Positions 20,786-36,508 of a stretch of DNA of 36,508 nt are shown piece by piece. The stretch is from Clostridia bacterium (lineage in GTDB: Bacteria; Bacillota; Clostridia; Acetivibrionales; STF1-152), in NCBI GenBank assembly GCA_028280575.1, contig JANQLN010000126.1, positions 1 through 36,508 on the forward strand, given 5' to 3'. The notes beneath the pieces are model-generated. The model searched no databases and was not told where the DNA came from. It saw only the letters and a program-made list of their open reading frames with translations. The translations under genes were made by a program, and so were the position numbers. How positions within the stretch are numbered: position 1 is the stretch's first letter; each line of letters begins with the position of its first letter.

Positions 20786-21325
20786 TTACTTAAACGGCAT
20801 TCCCAAAAGCTTAAGAAGCTCCCTGGCTTCTTCATCAGTCTTTGCAGTGGTAACAAATGTAATATTCATTCCCCTAACCCTGTCAACCTTATCATAATTG
20901 ATCTCCGGAAATATAAGCTGTTCCCTGACTCCCATGGAATAGTTTCCCCTTCCGTCAAAAGCATTCACCGAAACACCTCTAAAATCTCTTACCCTGGGCA
21001 GGGCGATACTAAAAAGCTTGTCAATAAAATTGTACATTCTTACTCCTCTGAGAGTTACCTTACAGCCTATTTCCATTCCTGCTCTGAGCTTAAAGTTAGC
21101 TACGGATTTTTTTGCTTTAGTTATTATAGGCTTCTGTCCCGATATCGTCATAAGATCATCTACGGCAGAATTCATAGCTTTAGGGTTTTCCCTAATTTCG
21201 TTTCCGACCCCCATACTGATAATAATTTTTTCCATTTTGGGAATCTCCATCGGGCTCTTATATTTAAATTTATCTTTTAATGCAGGAACAACTTCTTCAA
21301 TATACCTGTCTTTCATTCTGGACAT
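20786..21325 (-). CDS. rplE: 50S ribosomal protein L5
   Basis: A 179-residue L5 that binds 5S rRNA with L18. The start ATG at 21325 ([20 protein letters not shown]) is set by AAAGGAGG 9 bases upstream and by family length. Core motifs are [21 protein letters not shown] and [22 protein letters not shown]. The frame stays open upstream to an ATG at 21421, which would add 32 residues read from an interspersed repeat (21370-21450). That extension is not expected to be used. Confidence 0.97.
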
Positions 21326-21369
21326 CCTAAAAAGCCTCCTTTCCTCTTTCTCGTATACATATGCAGCAT

Positions 21370-21450
21370 CTTTAATTTTTACAATACGGCCTTTTGTAAT
21401 ATACAAGATTTCTAAAGTCATATTGCATAGAAATCAGACGTCACATACAG
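21370..21450. repeat. 81-base interspersed repeat, copy A (rplX-rplE gap)
   Basis: This segment aligns along its whole length with 35344-35424 in the same orientation at roughly three quarters identity with a few one- or two-base gaps. Shared blocks include CTTTAATTTT at the start, AAAGT then ATATT near the middle, and ATACAG at the end. Read on the minus strand both copies encode a similar peptide ([17 protein letters not shown] here, TLEIVYFKSHIAKIKD there) in one frame. It occupies most of the 130-base gap between rplX and rplE. Confidence 0.6.
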
Positions 21451-21455
21451 CACAT

Positions 21456-21809
21456 TTATTCCTTGTCTTCTTTTGCTTCTCTTGCGATGTCCACTACCTC
21501 ATTGCATTTTTTGCATTTTCTGACCTTTTGGCCATTGCCAGTAATCTCTTTTGCAATTTTAGTAGGTACCCCGCATCTTGAGCAAACCAGCATAACATTT
21601 GAAACGTGTATCGGGGATTCCTGTTCAATAATCCCGCCCTGCTGTGTTCTGCTTCTTGGTTTTTTGTGCTTCTTGGATACATTAACACCTTCCACAATTA
21701 CCTGTTGCTTTGATGGGTATACATGCAGTATCTTACCTTTGCTTCCGGCATCCTTACCGGCAAGCACATATACCGTATCTCCTTTTTTTACATGAATTTT
21801 ATTTGCCAA
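21456..21809 (-). CDS. rplX: 50S ribosomal protein L24 with zinc-ribbon cysteines
   Basis: A 117-residue L24, an assembly initiator of the 50S subunit. The KOW domain is at the start ([23 protein letters not shown]), and [23 protein letters not shown] follows. Two Cys-x2-Cys pairs (CSRCGVPTK and RKCKKCNEV, about 77-105) suggest a zinc ribbon, and a short acidic tail follows. Slightly longer than the usual 103-105. Confidence 0.97.
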
Positions 21810-34099: not shown

Positions 34100-35290
34100 T
34101 TATTCTTCATTCTCAGTATCTTTAACCAGGTACTTATCAACTATATCCTCGTTCAATTCAATACCCAGTCCGGGACGGTCAGGTACCTTTACAAATCCAT
34201 CCTTGTCAATAAATAAAGGTTCTTTTAAAATTTTCTCACGTAAATCGTTTGGATTGCGGTCAAACTCCAGCATTCCACCATTGGGTATTGCACAGAGGAA
34301 ATGTAGTGATGACATGAGAAGTACTGCGGAAGAGAAGCAGTGAGGCGCAAACTCCTTATGATAAGTATACGCCAGATTGGCTATTTTCCTGCATTCTGTT
34401 ATTCCTCCCGCCCACGATAAGTCTGGCTGTACTACATCTATACAGTGGTTTGTTATAAGTCTTGCAAAGTTAAATACAAGCTGTTCGGTTTCATAACCTG
34501 CAACCTTAAGGTCAAGTGCGGCAGCCAGCCGGGCACTTCCATCCATATTATCGGTACATACCGGCTCTTCTATCAAATATACTCCCAGCCTGTCAAAGTG
34601 CCGACCCATTACAATGGCGGTATGTAAGTCCCATGCGGTATTTGCATCAACCAATAATCTAATACCGGGTCCTATTTCCCTGCATACCGATTCAACCCTC
34701 TCCAGATCTTCCTCAACTGTGAAGTTATATTCAGAGTCAGGCATTACATCAATGGGATTAAGTGAGGTCAGATTTCTTCCCACCTTCATCTTAACTGCCG
34801 TAAACCCCTGTTCTAAATAGGACTTAATTTCCTCAGTTATCTCTTTAGTGCCTTTTCCCTGAGAGTAAAATCCTCCGCTTGCATATGCCCTGACTTTATC
34901 CGTATAGCCTCCCAGAAGCTTGTACACCGGAGTATTTAAAGCTTTGCCAATGATATCCCAAAGTGCAATATCAATACCACTTAAAGCACATATTACTATA
35001 CCACCCCTGGCGTGCTGAAAGGAATTATAATACACTTTCTTCCATATTCTTTCCACATTAAACGGATCCTCCCCTATAATTCTTGGAGCAATCTCCTTTT
35101 CTATCACTGTTTTAGTACTTTCAAGGGGACCACCAAAAGAAGCTGCCTCACCAACACCATATACATTATTGTTATCTGTATATACCTTTACCAGCAGCGC
35201 CTGTCTGTGAGATGCCTTAAAAATGGCATCATATATTGGCTTTTCATAGGGATAAATCAAAGGCAAACATTCTACCCGGGTAATTTTCAT
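34100..35290 (-). CDS. Enolase-superfamily sugar-acid dehydratase (mandelate racemase type)
   Basis: A 396-residue enzyme that abstracts the alpha proton of an aldonic acid and expels water to give a 2-keto-3-deoxy acid. N-terminal capping domain to about 125, then a TIM barrel. Visible active-site residues: Lys-x-Lys 167/169 in TAVKMKVGR, metal ligands Asp215 (LLVDAN), Glu241/242 (LIEEPV), Glu267 (AGYETEQ), the Asp290-His317 dyad (VQPDLSWAGG, FAPHCFSS) and Glu342 in GMLEFD. The His-Asp pair places it in the mandelate racemase group, with candidates galactonate, fuconate, rhamnonate or arabinonate. GGAGG precedes ATG 35290. First gene of the unit. Confidence 0.9.
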   Translation of the reverse strand: MKITRVECLPLIYPYEKPIYDAIFKASHRQALLVKVYTDNNNVYGVGEAASFGGPLESTKTVIEKEIAPRIIGEDPFNVERIWKKVYYNSFQHARGGIVICALSGIDIALWDIIGKALNTPVYKLLGGYTDKVRAYASGGFYSQGKGTKEITEEIKSYLEQGFTAVKMKVGRNLTSLNPIDVMPDSEYNFTVEEDLERVESVCREIGPGIRLLVDANTAWDLHTAIVMGRHFDRLGVYLIEEPVCTDNMDGSARLAAALDLKVAGYETEQLVFNFARLITNHCIDVVQPDLSWAGGITECRKIANLAYTYHKEFAPHCFSSAVLLMSSLHFLCAIPNGGMLEFDRNPNDLREKILKEPLFIDKDGFVKVPDRPGLGIELNEDIVDKYLVKDTENEE

Positions 35291-35343
35291 AATAAAATCC
35301 TCCTGTTGTTATTGTATATAATCTTTGTTTCTATATGGACAGT

Positions 35344-35424
35344 CTTTAATTTTAGCAATATGGCTTTTGAAATACACAATTTCCAAAGTAATATTACATA
35401 AATTATGACATTACACATATACAG
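35344..35424. repeat. 81-base interspersed repeat, copy B (dehydratase leader)
   Basis: The partner of 21370-21450 in the same strand orientation. It lies in the 165-base leader between the predicted promoter and the dehydratase start. See the other copy for the alignment blocks. On the minus strand it encodes TLEIVYFKSHIAKIKDCPYR without a start codon or ribosome binding site. Confidence 0.6.
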
Positions 35425-35461
35425 ATTTAACTAATAAACAATCCTTTTAAAATCAGCTCTT

Positions 35462-36451: not shown

Positions 36452-36508
36452 ACTGGCAGCGACCTACTTTCCCGGGACGTCCCCGTCCAAGTATCATCAG
36501 CACTGAGA
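36452..36508 (-). rRNA. 5S ribosomal RNA, 3' part (gene continues past window edge)
   Basis: On the minus strand the sequence ends GGGAAAGTAGGTCGCTGCCAG, the conserved 3' part of clostridial 5S rRNA, whose 3' terminal strand pairs with the 5' end. The preceding bases CAGTGCTGATGATACTTGGA match the helix III-IV region. Only about 57 of about 117 bases are in the window. The rest of the rRNA operon would lie to the right. Confidence 0.9.

Follow-up and report, generated by a model that had tools for sequence, protein, structure and literature searches.

A palindromic, MITE-like interspersed element between rplX and rplE in a clostridial spc operon

Why should some 80 bp of the spc operon, between the genes for ribosomal proteins L24 and L5, recur elsewhere on the same contig? 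A preliminary description of this DNA (the whole stretch of 36,508 nt, hereafter the window) had reported that 21370-21450 resembles 35344-35424 beyond chance, with both segments oriented alike toward their downstream gene, and had proposed either a family of small interspersed elements or a regulatory RNA motif. The similarity is real: on the minus strand, local alignment joins 21321-21465 to 35295-35445 with a score of 75, whereas dinucleotide shuffles (n=1000) do not exceed 34, and both copies do share their orientation relative to a downstream minus-strand gene. The repeat itself thus stands, but the length of 81 bp given for it does not, as the true extent of both copies is slightly longer (Table 1). 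The profile of the family described below matches the rplE copy at 21359-21449 (70.5 bits, E 3e-21) and the second copy at 35332-35419 (68.6 bits, E 1e-20). That the second copy encodes a similar peptide follows from the similarity of the two copies as DNA.

Table 1. Features of the two element copies and their surroundings; the outer limits of the copies are approximate.
Feature	Coordinates	Strand	Location or basis
Palindromic interspersed element (rplE copy)	21358..21450	-	rplX-rplE intercistronic gap, spc operon
Second element copy	35331..35420	-	5' intergenic region of minus-strand gene 34100-35290
A arm (inverted-repeat arm) of rplE copy	21358..21399	+	Consensus CTATATGRAACGTCTTTAATTCTTGCAWTATGGCYTTTGAAA; alignments and direct sequence reading
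B arm (other inverted arm) of rplE copy	21409..21450	+	Consensus TTTCAAAGRYCATAWTGCWTAGAATTATGACGTTACATATAG; alignments
rplX (ribosomal protein L24)	21456..21809	-	ORF list; stop precedes the element by about 5 nt
rplE (ribosomal protein L5)	20786..21325	-	Start ATG 21325-21323; homology
Shine-Dalgarno sequence AAAGGAGG of rplE, intact despite the insertion	21335..21342	-	Motif of relatives

The two copies are members of a small interspersed family, as the first of the two proposals had it. With the rplE copy as query, 43 BLAST matches are found in its own genome (4.35 Mb, 143 contigs), and a profile built from 23 BLAST-matched copies recovers at least 110 distinct loci in that genome at E<0.01, a lower bound reached among 150 scored candidates by hand count after strand merging. 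A 31-nt arm pattern allowing up to three mismatches gives 47 matches in the same genome, and the reversed control pattern gives 0. The resemblance was to be dismissed as chance if the genome held no more copies and shuffled sequences aligned equally well, and neither proved to be the case. At one copy per about 38 kb, the presence of two in the 36.5-kb window is therefore unremarkable. No family match at E<=1e-8 was detected in the 57 other genomes of the order, which leaves the source genome as the only positive among 58; no exact 24-mer match occurs elsewhere among the genomes of 84,980 species (GTDB r220), and the viral contigs and plasmids searched contain no element copies; records of this genome or of a close neighbour may be missing from these collections. 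Among the genomes searched, the family is lineage-restricted and confined to its own genome, where, the genus being represented by this single genome, restriction to the species is indistinguishable from restriction to the genus. A literature search of partial coverage yielded no description of this palindromic family.

Aligned, oriented copies give the consensus palindrome CTATATGRAACGTCTTTAATTCTTGCAWTATGGYCTTTGAAATACACAAAGGTTTTAGTGGATTTCAAAGGYCATAWTGCWTAGAATTATGACGTTACATATAG. The element is a non-coding, imperfect palindrome of about 85-106 bp with two inverted arms of about 41 nt and the ends CTATATG...CATATAG; the arms A and B are complementary and non-identical, which gives every copy a direction. 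Copies of full length measure 104-106 bp, many others have a shortened middle (85-95 bp), and two sequence variants, GCAATATGGC and GCATTATGGTC, are recognizable. Identity ranges from identical copies down to about 74% of the consensus, with a mean of 74% between pairs of copies and a median of 83% to the consensus. At one end, contigs C72 and C131 carry the same 98 bases of the GCATTATGGTC variant behind different flanks, and the end of contig C27 has the same sequence; these identical copies suggest recent spread, and since the three contigs end inside them, young copies evidently break the draft assembly. About two dozen copies belong to a uniform short form of 43-44 bp that has kept only the ends and a loop of a few bases, with its junction at a short direct repeat, ATTATG, found in both arms. 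From its sequence, the short form could have arisen by slippage across the hairpin or could itself be mobile. Its loci include L123:3006-3044, L257, L128, L136 and L258, among others, and some are near-perfect palindromes (TATATGTAACGTCATAATTCTAAGCATTATGACGTTACATATA).

Comparison with relatives shows what the rplE copy has done to the operon. In 29 of 29 relatives from the same order, all of which have the site empty, 26-52 nt (median 30) separate the rplX stop from the rplE start, and 11-40 nt do so in 75 of 80 wider relatives. The gap of 130 nt in the present operon would shrink to about 37 nt if the 93-bp element were removed. The difference is therefore due to an insertion that lies between the rplX stop and the Shine-Dalgarno sequence, directly ahead of the rplE ribosome-binding site. 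The rplE gene is recovered by homology in 53 of the 58 genomes of the order, mostly aligning from residue 1, and the same-order relatives displayed carry a AAAGGAGG- or GAAGGGAGG-type motif at the corresponding place. The insertion was presumably tolerated because this ribosome-binding site and both reading frames were left intact. Wide gaps also occur elsewhere: a distant clostridial relative (L217) has an apparent rplX-rplE gap of 316 nt, and the gaps in L202 and L153 measure 90 and 101 nt; these may be due to other insertions.

The preliminary description had also pointed out that an open frame runs through the rplE copy into L5, and the ORF list confirms this from ATG 21421 onward; the L5 open frame amounts to 215 aa in all. 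A translated N-terminal extension of L5, resembling the in-frame insertions of palindromic elements in Rickettsia, would agree with this open frame and with the 28 of 65 copies in which the homologous frame is open, but we regard it as extremely improbable. The homologous frame is closed by stops in the other 37 copies, and that of the second copy terminates ahead of its downstream gene; no Shine-Dalgarno-like sequence precedes ATG 21421, whereas ATG 21325 has a strong one; and the relatives, with L5 open frames of 180-193 aa, begin the protein at the same place behind their Shine-Dalgarno sequence and lack the extension. Rickettsia palindromic elements (RPEs) are likewise palindromic and can share an open frame with a gene, but they are translated within genes, whereas the copies here are mostly intergenic and the L5 frame is unused in relatives. 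The in-frame extension is coincidental, a by-product of the insertion, and the suggestion of coding use is not borne out; caution is needed in annotation, where the 32-residue N-terminal extension of L5 should not be included.

The proposal of a regulatory RNA deserves closer consideration, since both copies in the window are predicted to fold better than shuffled sequences: the rplE copy on the mRNA strand forms a hairpin of -24.3 kcal/mol (z -2.1) and the second copy one of -20.4 kcal/mol (z -2.4), while the full consensus reaches -41.7 kcal/mol (z -12.5). Over 65 copies, 83% of the 2379 pair cells of the named hairpin are paired, against 36-43% when the pairing is slid, and covariation exceeds that of shuffles. 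The folding of the two window copies and the covariation would fit a conserved regulatory RNA, such as a ribosomal-protein autoregulatory site, shared by the spc transcript and other genes. The covariation excess, however, is concentrated in the column pairs 30/100 and 38/90, which hold 34 of the 73 doubly changed cells and largely reflect the split between the sequence variants, and pairs with double changes are no more numerous than in shuffles (71/500; 65 copies). RNAalifold on the 23-copy alignment finds no consensus pair, and pairing within copies (0.834) exceeds pairing between copies (0.811) only slightly. Moreover, the copies occur in both orientations relative to co-directional genes (26:21, i.e., without bias), and relatives lack the element between rplX and rplE. 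Within the window, matches to Rfam families all stay below the gathering score, and for two copies of the element there are only generic hairpin matches far below those scores. In our reading, the pairing pattern comes from the decay of an ancestral palindrome and not from maintenance of an RNA fold, and the regulatory RNA motif, for which these results speak poorly, is very unlikely. The right end of the window (36455-36508) looks, by eye, like a portion of a 5S rRNA gene; it has no Rfam match, perhaps because of truncation.

The genomic placement of the family is mainly intergenic. As many as 78 of the 98 copies fetched fall outside naive ORFs, in DNA that is 83% ORF. In a domain scan of ten overlapped ORFs, three have no domain, and in seven out of seven with Pfam domains the element lies upstream of the first domain, such that the overlaps of these seven look like over-long start choices.

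Taken together with the evidence of movement, namely the empty site in relatives and the identical copies behind different flanks, the repeat is, with high probability, a non-autonomous, MITE-like element that has spread through this lineage. We infer transposition by a transposase, which presumably acted in trans and recognized the ends CTATATGNAACG...; the copies would have inserted mostly between genes and later decayed. In the flanks, no k-mer of 2-10 bp is duplicated clearly above the pairing expectation, and an invariant TA duplication would be indistinguishable from the end sequence of the element itself. A CTAG/TA target model was rejected, since the flanking C and G were found not to co-occur (18/17/13/12, p=1). 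An autonomous parent was sought in the 143-contig draft through DDE_3, DDE_Tnp_1 and Y1_Tnp loci and through pairs of end motifs, and no candidate with element ends emerged: there is no DDE_3/IS630 domain, the four DDE_Tnp_1 loci (IS4/IS5) all lack the ends, and no pair of terminal motifs lies at insertion-sequence distance. The parent may have died out, may be missing from the assembly, or may belong to a transposase family other than these three.

The Y1 search did return one transposase remnant, a 35-residue match in a 56-aa frame, and this bears on a different kind of mover. A REP-like palindrome mobilized by a single-strand transposase (HUH/Y1, RAYT-type) would explain the hairpin shape, the 43-bp short form, itself hairpin-shaped, and the absence of target-site duplication from the flanks. 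The remnant, however, is a single match whose position on its contig is far from the copies detected there, the 41-nt arms and the 100-bp length exceed those of REPs, and the GTAG/GGAG-type signature of REPs is not seen; we consider this route unlikely. Similarly low is the probability that the 43-44-bp form moves by itself through a transposase that leaves no target duplication, or that the rplX-rplE copy was recruited for control of the spc operon at a spot of the S8 type. In E. coli, S8 acts at the matching spot of this operon. If true, an independently moving 43-44-bp form would be among the smallest mobile DNA units known.

Returning to the preferred reading of a non-autonomous element moved in trans, the copies are best regarded as a new lineage-restricted MITE-like family. 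An autonomous partner is common in published MITE families and is not required; because neither a partner transposase nor a target-site duplication was found, membership is incomplete and we use the label "MITE-like". According to the published description, prokaryotic MITEs are shorter than 500 bp, AT-rich and intergenic, with inverted termini and stem-loop transcripts, and their direct repeats are reported to fade with age (PMC10969869). The structural features of the present family agree with this: the length of 85-106 bp combined with a frame that is closed in the majority of copies (37/65), the arms of about 41 nt whose consensus folds at -41.7 kcal/mol, and the dispersal over at least 110 mostly intergenic loci.

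In size, copy number, folding and location, no described element comes closer than RUP of S. pneumoniae, which is about 107 bp long, non-coding and tightly folded with paired termini, and is present in about 110 copies in one genome (PMC3049150). The resemblance to our family (85-106 bp, at least 110 loci) is one of description. RUP has a partner, IS630-Spn1, with similar ends, whereas the genome here is without a DDE_3 domain. Correia/NEMIS elements of Neisseria also combine high copy number with inverted termini and hairpins that are possible inside transcripts (PMC10969869); they have termini of about 26 bp and internal sequence of up to about 156 bp (PMC3049150). Correia elements undergo RNase III cleavage and can contain promoters, activities that are not known for the present family. 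By analogy, the hairpin in the rplX-rplE gap may change processing of the spc transcript through RNase III cleavage, or may change its coupling by separating rplX from rplE. ERIC and RU-1 resemble the family as palindromic, intergenic, lineage-restricted elements of roughly the 100-bp class, but they are enterobacterial and not clostridial. QMITE1 of Coxiella (39-400 bp), with its many truncated or short members, recalls the 43-44-bp form (PMC10969869), whereas QMITE2 of Coxiella has direct repeats of 7-9 bp and none were detected here.

A family of small lineage-specific elements, one of which inserted here, fully accounts for the repeat, and the rplX-rplE gap is an unusual location for an ordinary kind of element. 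The insertion is a natural example of how two essential ribosomal-protein genes can tolerate a hairpin-forming element between them, and the family profile can be used for annotating this genome. Elsewhere in the genome, copies also adjoin one another: head-to-tail tandem copies are found at C34:37794-37990 (L069) and C82:4606-4804 (L113). The tandem copies are joined as ...TTACATATATGRAACG..., with the terminal bases shared. At L118:1574-1678 (C8), a short-form copy is followed directly by a B-arm fragment of a second copy, in a composite or nested insertion.
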